A stretch of DNA of 39,153 bases from Hydrogenophaga intermedia (lineage in GTDB: Bacteria; Pseudomonadota; Gammaproteobacteria; Burkholderiales; Burkholderiaceae_C). The stretch covers positions 1 to 39,153 of the forward strand of contig CAMDCY010000008.1 in assembly GCA_945890705.1 (NCBI GenBank). Direction: 5' to 3'. The stretch's first letter is position 1; each line of letters starts with the position of its first letter. Below are positions 20,391-30,469 of the stretch, piece by piece. The position numbers were made by a program, and so were the translations under genes. Under the pieces are notes generated by a model. It was given only the letters and a program-made list of their open reading frames with translations. It had not been told where the DNA came from and searched no databases.

Positions 20391-21770
20391 TCAAATGATT
20401 TTGGAAAAGCGGGCGCGATCCCAATCGGTTTGCAAGTTTTTGTCGAACACCATGGCGATGGCCCGCACCAAATACCAACCGGTGTCGGTCACTTGGACAC
20501 CCGTCTGGCTGATGCGCACCAAGCCCTCTTGCTCAAAGTCGCGCAAGAGCGCCAGCTCGCGCGAGAAATAGCGCTGAAAGGCAATGAGGTGCCCGAGCTC
20601 AATGGACTCAAACAACAGCTCGCCTTGGCACATCAAGGCCATGATGACCGATCGGCGCAGGATGTCGTCGCGCGACAAGGCCAAGCCGCGCACGATGGGC
20701 AAACGGCCTTGATCGAGCGCGTCGTAATACGCCTCCAAGGTCTTGGCGTTTTGGCTGTAGGTTGCCCCGATGCGGCCAATGGCCGACACACCCAATGCGA
20801 TCAGGTCGCAATCGGGTTGGGTGCTGTAGCCTTGAAAATTTCGATGCAAACGCCCCTGACGCTTGGCCACGGCCAAGGCGTCGTTGGGCAAGGCAAAGTG
20901 GTCCATACCCACATACACATAACCCGCTTCGCTCATGGCGTCCAGGGACATCGAGAGCATGGCCAGTTTCTGGCTGCCGCTGGGCAGTTCGGCGGCGTGG
21001 ATGCGTCGCTGAGGCTTGAAGCGCTCGGGCAAATGGGCGTATCCATACAAAGCAATGCGGTCGGGTCGCAACTCGCTGACCTGCGCCAAGGTGCGTGCAA
21101 ACGACTCGGCGGTCTGCAGCGGCAAACCGTAGATCAAGTCCACGTTGAGGGATTCAAAGCCGATGCGCCGTGCCGCCGCCACCAATTCAAACACCTGCTC
21201 AGGTGGCTGCACGCGGTGCACGGCTTTTTGCACCATTGGGTCGAAGTCTTGGACGCCAAAACTCAAGCGGTTAAAGCCCATGTCAAACAAGGCTTGCAAA
21301 CGCGCGGGTGTGACCGTGCGCGGGTCCACCTCCACCGAGTATTCGCCACCGGGCACCCGATTGAAAAATCGGCGCAACATGGCCATGAGTTGACGCAATT
21401 CGTCGTCGCTCAAAAACGTGGGCGTGCCGCCACCCAAGTGCAGTTGCGAGACGCTGTGCCCCTCGCCAAAGTGCGCCACTTGCAAGGCCACCTCCCGCTC
21501 CAAATAGCGCAAATACTCGGCCCCACGTTCGTGGTGCTTGGTGATGACTTTGTTACACGCGCAGTAGTAGCACACCGAATCACAAAACGGCACATGCACA
21601 TACAAAGACAGCGGGGAGCCCAAGGAGGCGGTGCGCCGCTGTTCCAAGGCTTGGATATAGTCGGTCTCGCCGAAGGCCTCCACGAAACGGTCAGCGGTGG
21701 GGTACGAGGTGTAACGCGGCCCTGGCACGTCGTATCGCTTCAACAATTCATCGGAAATGGCGTGGCTCAC
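20391..21770 (-). CDS. hemN: Oxygen-independent coproporphyrinogen III dehydrogenase
   Basis: A 459-residue radical SAM enzyme (E. coli HemN 457) that converts coproporphyrinogen III to protoporphyrinogen IX without oxygen. The start VSHAISDELLKRYDVPGPRYTSYPTA is typical of true HemN rather than HemW. The cluster motif is PFCDSVCYYCAC (CxxxCxxC), followed by GGGTPTFL and the HemN C-terminal domain. The start is GTG at 21770, seven bases after AGGAG. An FNR-type box lies upstream, with TACAGT (21799-21794) at class II spacing. It supplies haem at low oxygen, as needed for the adjacent cbb3 oxidase. Confidence 0.96.
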   Translation of the reverse strand: MSHAISDELLKRYDVPGPRYTSYPTADRFVEAFGETDYIQALEQRRTASLGSPLSLYVHVPFCDSVCYYCACNKVITKHHERGAEYLRYLEREVALQVAHFGEGHSVSQLHLGGGTPTFLSDDELRQLMAMLRRFFNRVPGGEYSVEVDPRTVTPARLQALFDMGFNRLSFGVQDFDPMVQKAVHRVQPPEQVFELVAAARRIGFESLNVDLIYGLPLQTAESFARTLAQVSELRPDRIALYGYAHLPERFKPQRRIHAAELPSGSQKLAMLSMSLDAMSEAGYVYVGMDHFALPNDALAVAKRQGRLHRNFQGYSTQPDCDLIALGVSAIGRIGATYSQNAKTLEAYYDALDQGRLPIVRGLALSRDDILRRSVIMALMCQGELLFESIELGHLIAFQRYFSRELALLRDFEQEGLVRISQTGVQVTDTGWYLVRAIAMVFDKNLQTDWDRARFSKII

Positions 21771-21820
21771 AGAAAACTCCTGATCGAACTTTCACTGTAT
21801 CGACTCTCGCGCCCAACGAT

Positions 21821-21834
21821 TTGACGTGCGTCAA
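21821..21834. promoter_or_regulatory. FNR-type box in the hemN-fnr spacer
   Basis: TTGACGTGCGTCAA is a perfect palindrome fitting the FNR/ANR pattern TTGAY-N4-RTCAA. Its centre lies about 41 nt upstream of the start point predicted from TACAGT (21799-21794) for hemN, which is class II activator spacing. It lies 104 nt from the fnr ATG, so autoregulation is also possible. Confidence 0.8.
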
Positions 21835-21887
21835 ACAAAGTCGTATCTGCCACGTCTAAGACAAAGTGGTGGGGTTTACTGCAGTCA

Positions 21888-21906
21888 CATACCCCCATGG
21901 GGTATG
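21888..21906. promoter_or_regulatory. CsoR-like palindrome upstream of fnr
   Basis: CATACCCC and GGGGTATG form perfect 8-bp arms with a 3-nt centre (21888-21906), 25 bp before the fnr ATG. The ATACCCC-N3-GGGGTAT layout resembles operators of copper-sensing CsoR and related repressors. TATGCT in the right arm (21903-21908) could be the fnr -10 box. No csoR-like gene is in the window; the identification is by motif shape only. Confidence 0.5.
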
Positions 21907-21931
21907 CTCAAACCGTATTGAAAGTTTTGCC

Positions 21932-22651
21932 ATGGACCTGCCCAGCATCAAAGTCGCCTGCTCCAGTTGCAACCTCAGAGAGTTGTGTTTGCCCATGGGC
22001 CTCAAGGCCGATGAGATGCAAAAACTCGACACCATCGTCTCCAACCGTAAGCGCATCAAACGCGGTGAAGCGCTGTTCAGTGCAGGCGAACGCTTCAGCT
22101 CTTTGTTTGCCGTTCGATCGGGGTTCTTCAAAACACGCGTGACCACCCCAGACGGTCGAGACCAGGTCACGGGCTTTCAGATGACGGGTGAGATCATTGG
22201 CTTGGACGGTATCGTCACCGACCAACACACCTGCGATGCGGTGGCGCTGGAAGACGCGGAGGTGTGCATCATGCCCTTTGCAAAATTGGAAGCACTCTCG
22301 CGCGAATTCACCTCACTGCAGCACCACGTGCACAAAATCATGAGCCGCGAAATCGTTCGCGATCAAGGCGTCATGATGATGCTTGGCAGCATGCGGGCCG
22401 AAGAACGTTTGGCTGCGTTCTTGCTGAACCTGGTTCAGCGTTTGCATGCCCGCGGCTTCTCGCAGTCCGAGTTGGTGTTGCGCATGACGCGCGAAGAAAT
22501 CGGCAGCTACTTGGGTTTGAAATTGGAGACAGTGAGCCGCACCTTCTCCAAGTTCGTCGACGACGGGATCATCGAGGTCAAACAGCGCTACGTCATGATC
22601 AAGGACAACGAAGCCCTCAAGGCCATCGTGAACCTACCCAACTGCGACTGA
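21932..22651 (+). CDS. fnr: FNR-type oxygen-sensing transcription regulator
   Basis: A 239-residue CRP/FNR regulator. Cysteines 10, 13, 19 and 112 match the four [4Fe-4S] ligands of E. coli FNR (20, 23, 29, 122), and the spacing from the third to the fourth is identical (93 residues). The cNMP-binding-like beta barrel spans about residues 30-130, the dimer helix about 130-155. The HTH is TREEIGSYLGLKLETVSRTFSKF with the E-x-x-S-R recognition residues for TTGAT half-sites. I chose ATG at 21932 because upstream codons include non-homologous sequence crossing the palindrome. It should activate the hemN and cco promoters in this window under low oxygen. Confidence 0.95.
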   Translation: MDLPSIKVACSSCNLRELCLPMGLKADEMQKLDTIVSNRKRIKRGEALFSAGERFSSLFAVRSGFFKTRVTTPDGRDQVTGFQMTGEIIGLDGIVTDQHTCDAVALEDAEVCIMPFAKLEALSREFTSLQHHVHKIMSREIVRDQGVMMMLGSMRAEERLAAFLLNLVQRLHARGFSQSELVLRMTREEIGSYLGLKLETVSRTFSKFVDDGIIEVKQRYVMIKDNEALKAIVNLPNCD

Positions 22652-27970: not shown

Positions 27971-27984
27971 TTGATATAAATCAA
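27971..27984. promoter_or_regulatory. Perfect FNR box upstream of ccoN, overlapping ccoS stop
   Basis: TTGATATAAATCAA matches the FNR consensus TTGAT-N4-ATCAA in all ten half-site bases. Class II spacing (-41.5) predicts a start point near 27936, leaving a 24-nt leader with AGGAG before the ccoN ATG. A weak -10 (GACACT, 27948-27943) is at the matching place. The box includes the ccoS stop codon (27981-27983). Confidence 0.9.
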
Positions 27985-28119: not shown

Positions 28120-30420
28120 TCAACCTTTTGAAGGGTTTGGGGCCCGTGTCAGGCGCATGGCATTGCCAATCACCCACAGTGAACTGCCCGCCATGCCCAC
28201 GCCCGCCAACCAAGGCGGCATCCAGCCCACCAAGGCCAAGGGAACACACACCGCGTTGTAAGCGGCGGCCCACATGAGGTTTTGCTTGACGATGCGCAGG
28301 GTCCTGCGGGCCATGTGTAAGGTGTTGACGACATCCATGACCGAGCCGCCTTGGATCACAAAATCCGATTGGGCTTGTGCCAAGGGCGCGGCGTGACCCA
28401 AGGCGAAGGACGTGTCGGCGGTGGCCAGCACGGGGCCGTCGTTCAAGCCGTCACCCACCATCGCCACCCGCCAACCTTGGGCTTGCAGGGCTTTGACGTG
28501 GGCCAATTTGTCCTCGGGTGAGGCCTGCGCCACCACATGCCCCACACCGATGCGATCGGCCACGCGCTGTGCGGCCGCTTGGCGGTCGCCGCTGAGCAAA
28601 TGCGTGGCGATGCCCAAGGCATGCAGCGCGCCCACGGCGGCCGCGGCGTCTTCTCTGACCGCCTCTGCGAGTTCGATCGTGGCCAACCAACCCTGCTCAT
28701 CCGCCAAGTACACCCGCGGACTGGGCTCCCCCGAAGGCGGCACATCCGCTGCGGTCAAGCCACAAGCGTCCAAAGACCCCAAGCGCCACACCTCACCGGT
28801 GGGCCAATGTGCCCACAAACCTTGACCGGCCACCTCGCGCACACGCTCCAGCGCCGCGGGGGCCACGTCGGCCCAATGCCGCACCAGGGCCTGAGAGGCC
28901 GGGTGCAGCGACCCTGCGGCCATGGCCACGATACGGCCTTGAACCCACAGCGCCTCGACACCGTCGCGTCGCTGCCAGTCGCGCACCACCAAGCGGTCGT
29001 GGGTCAAGGTGCCGGTTTTGTCAAACACCACAGCACTGACCTGCGAGAGCGACTCAAAGGCTTGCAATCGCCGCACCAGCACGCCCCCACGGGCCAAAGC
29101 ACCCGCGGCGGACAACATGGCTGAGGGCGTGGCCAAAGACAAGGCACAGGGACAGGTGACGATGAGCACCGCCACCGCCACCGACAAGGCTTGCGAGGGA
29201 TCGATCGGCCACCAATACAGCGCCGCACCGGCTGCGGCCAACATGACCAAAACCAAAAAAGGTGCGGCGATGCGGTCGGCCAAAATGGCCAATCGCGGTT
29301 TATCGACCGAGGCTTTTTCCATCAGGCTGACGATTTGCCCAAAGCGGGTTTGTTTGCCCAACACGCTCAAGCGCACCAACACCGGCCCACCCAAATTGAA
29401 GCTACCGGCCACCACCGATTCGCCGCGCAGCTTGGTGACGGGCTCCGATTCTCCGGTGAGCAAGGCCTCGTCCACCGAGGCGCTCTCGCTGAGCAGCTCG
29501 GCGTCGCCCGCAAACACCTGGCCCGCGGGCACCCGCACCACATCGCCCACGACCAATCGACGCGCCGAAACGGTTTTGAACGTGCCGTCGGCTTGCTGCT
29601 GCTCAGCAACCTCGGGCAAGCGGTTCATCAAATGGTCCAGGGCCCCAGCCGTTCGGTCGCGGGCCTTGAGTTCCAAATAACGCCCCCCGAGCAAAAAGAA
29701 CACAAACATGGTGAGCGAGTCGAACCAGACCTCATCGCCCCACGGCCCCGTGGGGTCGAAGGTCGCGGCTGAGCTGGCGACGAAGGTCACGATGATGCCC
29801 ACGGACACGGGCGTGTCCATGCCGATACGCCCCAACTTGAGGTCGCGCCAAGCGCTTTGAAAAAACGGTCCGCTGGCGAAAAAGACCACTGGCAAACTCA
29901 AGACCCAGCTGGCCCAGCGCAGCAGCTGGTCAATGTCGGCGGGGATGTCGCCGGGTTCGGCCACGTAGGCGGGCCACGCGTACATCATCACCTGCATCAT
30001 GCAAAAACCGGCCACGAACAAGCGCCACAAGGCTTTGCGGGTTTCGGCCAGTCGCTCGCTGATAGACAAAGCTTGCTTCAGGGGCAGCAGGCGGTAGCCG
30101 CTGGCGCCCACGGTCTGGGCCAAGCGGGACAGCGGTGTGTCGCTGGGGTCCCACTGCAAGACCAAACGCCGCGTGGCGGCGTGCACGCGGGCCGATCGAA
30201 CGCCTGCCACGCCTTGCAAGGCGGTTTCGACCGTGTCGGCGCAGGCGGCGCAGTACATGCCTTGGACCAACAAGACCGACTCCCGCACACCCGCAACGTC
30301 GTCCGTCAGGGGCAGAGTGAAATCGGCTTGCTCGACCGGATCGTCCAAGACAAGAAAGTCATCCTCAACCGTCAGCGGACCGCGGTGGTCGGCAAAAGGC
30401 GCAAGGACGGCACTGTTCAT
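28120..30420 (-). CDS. ccoI: CcoI/FixI copper-translocating P1B-type ATPase
   Basis: A 766-residue P-type ATPase for copper delivery to cbb3 oxidase. An N-terminal heavy-metal domain carries the GMYCAACAD (CxxC) site near residues 54-62. The transport motif CPC is in VTCPCALS, the actuator motif TGES in LLTGESEPV, the phosphorylation site DKTGT, the HP motif in SLHPAS, and the hinge GDGLNDGP. About eight membrane helices are visible. It is the first gene of ccoIS. No good Shine-Dalgarno precedes the ATG and a perfect FNR box is centred 42 nt upstream, so a leaderless transcript is possible. Confidence 0.94.
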   Translation of the reverse strand: MNSAVLAPFADHRGPLTVEDDFLVLDDPVEQADFTLPLTDDVAGVRESVLLVQGMYCAACADTVETALQGVAGVRSARVHAATRRLVLQWDPSDTPLSRLAQTVGASGYRLLPLKQALSISERLAETRKALWRLFVAGFCMMQVMMYAWPAYVAEPGDIPADIDQLLRWASWVLSLPVVFFASGPFFQSAWRDLKLGRIGMDTPVSVGIIVTFVASSAATFDPTGPWGDEVWFDSLTMFVFFLLGGRYLELKARDRTAGALDHLMNRLPEVAEQQQADGTFKTVSARRLVVGDVVRVPAGQVFAGDAELLSESASVDEALLTGESEPVTKLRGESVVAGSFNLGGPVLVRLSVLGKQTRFGQIVSLMEKASVDKPRLAILADRIAAPFLVLVMLAAAGAALYWWPIDPSQALSVAVAVLIVTCPCALSLATPSAMLSAAGALARGGVLVRRLQAFESLSQVSAVVFDKTGTLTHDRLVVRDWQRRDGVEALWVQGRIVAMAAGSLHPASQALVRHWADVAPAALERVREVAGQGLWAHWPTGEVWRLGSLDACGLTAADVPPSGEPSPRVYLADEQGWLATIELAEAVREDAAAAVGALHALGIATHLLSGDRQAAAQRVADRIGVGHVVAQASPEDKLAHVKALQAQGWRVAMVGDGLNDGPVLATADTSFALGHAAPLAQAQSDFVIQGGSVMDVVNTLHMARRTLRIVKQNLMWAAAYNAVCVPLALVGWMPPWLAGVGMAGSSLWVIGNAMRLTRAPNPSKG

Positions 30421-30455: not shown

Positions 30456-30469
30456 TTGATCAATATCAA
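30456..30469. promoter_or_regulatory. Perfect FNR box between ccoI and the usp remnant
   Basis: TTGATCAATATCAA matches the FNR consensus in all ten half-site bases. Its centre (30462.5) is 42 nt from the A of the ccoI ATG. TACCCT (30433-30428) sits where a class II -10 should be, placing the ccoI start point at or next to the ATG. The box could also have driven the divergent usp gene, whose -10 is not obvious. Confidence 0.88.

Follow-up and report, generated by a model that had tools for sequence, protein, structure and literature searches.

The question raised by this locus is what a perfect inverted repeat is doing on the proposed −10 element of fnr, and what protein would bind it. Oxygen, acting through the iron-sulfur cluster of FNR itself, is usually regarded as what controls this regulator, along with modest autoregulation. 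A dedicated operator on the fnr core promoter, if true, would give the entire low-oxygen respiratory programme of one bacterial lineage a second input. We analyzed the window (the whole stretch of 39,153 nucleotides, from Hydrogenophaga intermedia) together with its genome (G000; an assembly of 1,923,136 bases, or 1.92 Mb, that is 82.7% complete) and related genomes. The features around the start of fnr are:

20391–21770, minus strand: hemN-type radical SAM gene, divergent from fnr
21794–21799, minus strand: possible hemN −10, TACAGT (by eye)
21821–21834, no strand assigned: FNR-box-like TTGACGTGCGTCAA, between hemN and fnr
21888–21906, no strand assigned: perfect dyad CATACCCC-CAT-GGGGTATG, proposed operator, read from the sequence
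21903–21908, plus strand: TATGCT, proposed −10 of fnr, overlapped by the right arm of the dyad
21932–22651, plus strand: fnr, Crp/Fnr family, passing the NCBIfam model for the Fnr subfamily

The dyad and its promoter context

The dyad is observed directly and ends 25 bp before the fnr ATG (21932). The original prediction, a GC-cored dyad on a possible −10 at this distance from fnr, is correct in sequence, coordinates and spacing. TATGCT starts 29 bp before the ATG, where many congeners have TAAGCT, and it is by lying on this hexamer that the dyad overlaps the predicted (unmapped) promoter. If TATGCT is taken as −12 to −7, the dyad extends from approximately −27 to −9. A consensus scan of 21700–22000 found no sigma-70 promoter, and the best −35 at 16–18 bp from TATGCT matches at 2 of 6 positions. 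Within the dyad, TAC-CCCCATGGG-GTA (21890–21904) forms a TAC-N9-GTA inverted repeat that includes two short G/C tracts.

Two published types of operator share this layout. The available excerpt of PMC3902906 gives ATATACCCCTNAGGGGTATAT as the streptomycete type-2 CsoR consensus, with a TAC-N9-GTA repeat that is needed by Streptomyces lividans CsoR, and reports that a TAC/GTA swap abolishes binding. The FrmR sites of Escherichia coli frm are described, in the excerpt of PMC5146963, as tandem type I ATAC/GTAT repeats around 9-bp GC tracts. The putative operator in the window matches both spacings (TAC-N9-GTA and ATAC-N9-GTAT) exactly as given in these excerpts, and this match in layout is a direct one. 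Exact ATACCCC-N3-GGGGTAT was found in 4 of 150 genomes of the family, the window genome included; in one of the four it lies inside an ABC-transporter-like frame. In two others it directly precedes an frmR-type gene, and an alcohol-dehydrogenase-type gene comes next (both named by eye from the translations); this, with the spacing of the excerpted type-2 CsoR and FrmR sites, bears out the earlier impression that the shape recalls CsoR-family operators.

Two other regulator types were considered and rejected. The LysR-type motif is ATAC-N7-GTAT, and the spacing of the dyad is 9, not 7. MerR-type promoters have their −35 at 19–20 bp, and none was seen by eye at that distance.

Conservation, uniqueness and chance

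Conservation was assessed in a genus sample of 67 genomes. fnr was found in 62 of these at E ≤ 1e-70 and, with one truncated gene dropped, 61 promoters were read, including that of G000. By a loose rule, the −10 is TAAGCT, TAACCT or TAATCT in 37; TATGCT is preceded by a C-tract/G-tract dyad in 12 and lacks one in 8, and 4 have neither type of −10. Exact TCGACA at 16–18 bp occurs in 23 of the 37 TAAGCT-like promoters, and 29 have a −35 matching at least 4 of 6 positions. The fnr tree places 11 of the 12 dyad promoters in a single 14-member clade with modest support (91/88). G000 forms a long lone branch outside this clade; its perfect arms are therefore without a close relative to confirm them.

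Seven clade species, picked for their common N3 spacing and anchored on the −10, were compared. GACACCCC-N3-GGGGTATGCTGT is identical at fnr in all of them except for one base in G172, and the three central bases vary; outside these three, the variation consists of one flanking base and the one base in the one species. Identity across these seven selected species is 0.91 for the 24-bp element and 0.76 at the third codon positions of fnr. The linker to the FNR box gives 0.52 (gapped) compared to 0.49 for shuffled linkers, so its likeness is not above chance. Conservation extends to GACA, 12–15 bases upstream of the −10. As aligned, GACACCCC-N3-GGGGTATGCTGT is a phylogenetic footprint, directly visible in these relatives, though the seven were selected for carrying it.

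Across the whole clade the element is less uniform. A C4 tract with a spacer of 2–3 is present in 9 of the 14 promoters, changed in two (G185 and G160) and absent from three (G159, G209 and G177), and the left half is CAC, not TAC. Arm symmetry was scored in 57 promoters, the 4 of 61 that had no readable −10 being dropped. It reaches p ≤ 0.05 in 8 of the 14 clade promoters and in G000, compared to 1 of the 42 others. Conservation of the dyad at fnr, as originally envisaged, thus holds for a near-dyad in part of one clade and fails for perfect 8-bp arms, which occur in one of the 57 scored promoters, namely that of G000.

The FNR-box-like TTGACGTGCGTCAA was also considered as a part of the fnr promoter and rejected. 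Because the gap from box to −10 varies from 34 to 49 bp across the nine clade promoters measured, the box fits hemN better than fnr, and its spacing would suit class II activation of hemN.

Limnohabitans-type fnr promoters (L060, L065, L066, L068, L069, L073 and L075) carry the palindrome GGGTATACCC ∼25 bp upstream of a TAAGCT-like −10 and ∼77–89 bp upstream of fnr. Its 14 sites in nine genomes searched comprise 7 at fnr, 5 inside frames of more than 200 residues and 2 elsewhere. The CsoR-like protein resident in G000 (see below) has no match in three of those seven Limnohabitans-type genomes.

The conserved bases could be a feature of the core promoter only, with GGGGTATGCT as an extended −10, a structural C tract and no regulator. 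TATGCT is present in 14 of 14 clade promoters and GGGG in 13 of 14; no −35 matching at least 4 of 6 positions at 16–18 bp exists in 12 of the 14 or in G000, and an extended −10 could substitute for it. In four congeners outside the clade (G170, G186, G194 and G196), the fnr promoter has GGGGTATGCT but no C4 tract; the right half of the dyad can apparently stand alone, which counts against the operator reading. However, GGGGTATGCT occurs once in G000, at fnr, and we rejected it as a general promoter word because G000 and the 14 clade genomes together contain 20 matches, 14 of them at fnr, compared to 21 in the reversed control. The conservation that reaches GACA in the seven species also speaks against a mere −10. 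We regard the core-promoter explanation as distinctly unlikely.

Chance is another candidate explanation of the perfect arms in the window. The window contains 12 dyads with perfect arms of at least 8 and a spacer of 0–8, compared to 8.1 ± 2.9 in shuffled sequence, so a dyad as such is no rarity there; the isolation of G000 in the fnr tree and the single perfect example among the scored promoters point the same way. On the other hand, the probability of at least one such dyad in the 161-bp hemN–fnr gap is 0.016. Given the right arm GGGGTATG, an 8/8 left arm at a spacer of 2–5 never appeared when the upstream 40 bp were shuffled 2000 times, and both the N3 spacing and GGGGTATGCT match the clade footprint. 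A coincidental match is given hardly any weight.

The perfect TACCCC-N3-GGGGTA core is a single copy in the assembly, at fnr, as a direct count. When up to 2 mismatches are allowed there are 42 sites in G000 compared to 67 for the reversed control, and near-sites are therefore not enriched; of the four sites with 1 mismatch, open frames span all but one. A search of the genome for further ATACCCC-N3-GGGGTAT sites had been suggested earlier, but a set of perfect or near-perfect sites beyond fnr did not emerge.

A search of 66 genus genomes for ACCCC-N2-5-GGGGTATG returned 45 rows (44 sites, that of the window being matched on both strands), compared to 7 control rows. The fnr promoters account for ten of these rows, in nine genomes. 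Among the 41 rows inspected, 9 share a promoter, TTGTACCCC-T[GA]-GGGGTATG, and the genomes that have it do not overlap with the nine that have the site at fnr. A genus-wide regulon was considered and rejected. The genes behind the TTGTACCCC promoter were checked with Pfam in one genome, G202 (L235), where the operon encodes HlyD-type and RND-type proteins, a short frame resembling DUF2892, a SLAC1 channel and a CsoR-family member that has just one sensing Cys; RND and DUF2892 were named by eye. The same promoter is found in L236–L238. In two clade genomes, L243 (∼1041) and L249 (∼1008) have in common a stretch around ACCCC...GGGGTATGAACGGTAGGTTGTGCCCCGCGAGGG, perhaps a repeat or a structured RNA.

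Candidate binders of the dyad

One PF02583 (CsoR-family) gene was found in G000, at 2354–2683 of contig 6, in agreement with the expectation that the genome would contain such a gene. Its product has the first sensing Cys and another Cys 24 residues further on. Alignment to frmR-type proteins shows Ser where these have His, and alignment to PDB chains 7mq1 and 7mq3 shows Ala where these have Cys; the printed alignment to copper CsoR 4m1p stops before position Y. Copper CsoR proteins have Cys-His-Cys at positions X-Y-Z of the fingerprint. With Cys-Ser-Ala at these positions, the resident protein is, by its predicted ligands, no copper CsoR. It also falls far short of the NCBIfam thresholds for FrmR (35.1 bits compared to 133), RicR and RcnR. 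The set of FrmR traits (Pro2, Cys35, His60 and an frmA partner) was not found, since the protein starts with MATRT, has Ser at the His position and has no dehydrogenase in its locus. No copper efflux genes are present in this 3.2-kb locus, where the neighbours are DUF302, OsmC and aldolase genes.

The resident protein likely has an operator of its own. TACCCTAGGGGGTAGGGTA (TAC-N8-GTA; L001 1301–1319) sits between its gene and the divergent DUF302 gene, and is the likely target of the protein. Of 66 genus genomes, 18 have a single copy of this 19-mer with at most 2 mismatches (control 0); it lies within 220 bp of a PF02583 match in all 18 and never at fnr. By translation likeness, a similar lipoprotein frame is divergent from the resident-type gene in 6 of 9 further loci, and the three without it belong to clade members. 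In three clade genomes (G160, G185 and G212) and in G151, the promoter of the resident-type CsoR-family gene has a GGGGTAT half-site instead. This would allow a half-site common to fnr and is only a hint. A search across the clade for matched changes in the operators of csoR and fnr gave no convincing case.

The original prediction was that a copper-sensing CsoR binds the dyad and ties copper supply to FNR and the cbb3 oxidase. The following features of the window bear on this, the cco genes having been named by eye from their translations:

27971–27984, no strand assigned: FNR box TTGATATAAATCAA, where the listed ccoN frame begins (gene named by eye)
28120–30420, minus strand: heavy-metal P-type ATPase gene, passing the NCBIfam copper-translocating model
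30456–30469, no strand assigned: FNR box TTGATCAATATCAA, preceding the heavy-metal P-type ATPase gene, which adjoins the cbb3 genes

FNR boxes at both ccoN and the ATPase agree with the earlier assumption that FNR drives a copper-requiring oxidase. Besides these boxes, copper control could draw on the type-2 shape of the dyad, as described in the published excerpt, and on the presence of a CsoR-family gene in G000; a copper-type member could also be missing from an assembly that is 82.7% complete. Nevertheless, the sole CsoR-family protein found lacks the His and the second Cys of the copper site, its likely operator differs from the dyad and adjoins the DUF302 gene, and the clade genome G206 keeps the footprint where no CsoR-family gene was found. 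Because the ligands are missing and the likely operator is different, we set copper CsoR aside as the binder; copper control of fnr is very improbable.

G206 is 95% complete, and neither a PF02583 search at E ≤ 1 nor a query with the resident protein found such a gene in it. Therefore either this assembly has missed a CsoR-family protein or the binder comes from another family. In G159 the CsoR family was not found, and the C tract is also absent.

The second branch of this choice leads to an alternative in which GACACCCC-N3-GGGGTATGCTGT is the site of an unrelated regulator of fnr in this lineage, and the likeness to CsoR operators is convergence. The footprint of G206 fits it, as do the CAC left half of the clade and the near-restriction of GGGGTATGCT to fnr in the 15 genomes searched. 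Its weaknesses are that the arms in G000 are exactly of the CsoR/FrmR type, as excerpted, and that we know of no other regulator family with the half-site of the dyad. We consider an unrelated regulator unlikely, while taking it seriously.

Proposed regulation and comparison with known systems

The dyad is probably a functional control element. More specifically, it may be a real, lineage-restricted putative repressor operator within the core promoter of fnr, with a shape like that of CsoR/FrmR sites, a reading to which we give somewhat less than an even chance. Protein binding at the dyad, repression by it and the assignment of the binder to the CsoR family are all inferred. Since the dyad covers spacer and −10 bases of a promoter with no recognisable −35, a bound protein would mask both and block RNA polymerase. 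A signal that releases this repression would let an input other than oxygen set the amount of FNR. A CsoR-family protein is the leading candidate for the binder in G000 because of the exact type-2 shape there, although we hold this assignment tentatively and would sooner doubt it than rely on it. The resident protein, as the sole candidate found in G000, is perhaps a thiol-based sensor. We can thus sketch a mechanism, speculative and on balance improbable, in which some lineages place a non-copper, cysteine-based CsoR-family repressor on the fnr −10, so that a thiol-reactive signal (persulfide, aldehyde or oxidant) would free fnr and set the level of the regulator of the cbb3 oxidase and copper pump. 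With FNR boxes at ccoN and at the P-type ATPase, control of fnr would extend to the cbb3 oxidase and the ATPase, its likely copper pump.

The kind of site is already known. Among the open-licence papers listed, titles and abstract openings contain no CsoR or copper control of fnr, nor any description of such a site in this place. They do include a RegA that binds copper (PMC9147068) and the control of Haemophilus fnr by methylation (PMC12345214). Neither "fnr" nor "anr" appears in the main text, as available, of a study of CsoR in Pseudomonas putida (PMC11978298).

Compared with the CsoR type-2 operators of S. lividans csoR, copZA1 and copZA2, to the extent that these are described in the excerpted source, the dyad has the same ATACCCC-N3-GGGGTAT core, the same TAC-N9-GTA repeat and the same two short G/C tracts. 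It differs in its target, which is fnr here and copper efflux there, in a genome where no copper-type CsoR was found, and the clade relatives of the window show CAC instead of TAC. With the FrmR operators, as excerpted, it shares ATAC/GTAT flanking a 9-bp GC tract. In contrast, the E. coli sites are tandem type I repeats with another target, and the resident CsoR-family gene is not frmR-like.

A third comparison concerns the protein. TTHA1953 and CstR are sulfur-linked CsoR-family members that act via cysteine chemistry, and the cysteines of TTHA1953, C39 and C68, are 29 apart, according to the available part of PMC10318464. Judged against that part, the resident protein differs from them in cysteine spacing and DNA site, and no sulfur genes are tied to it. 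It resembles them in having the first Cys and, 24 residues on, another.
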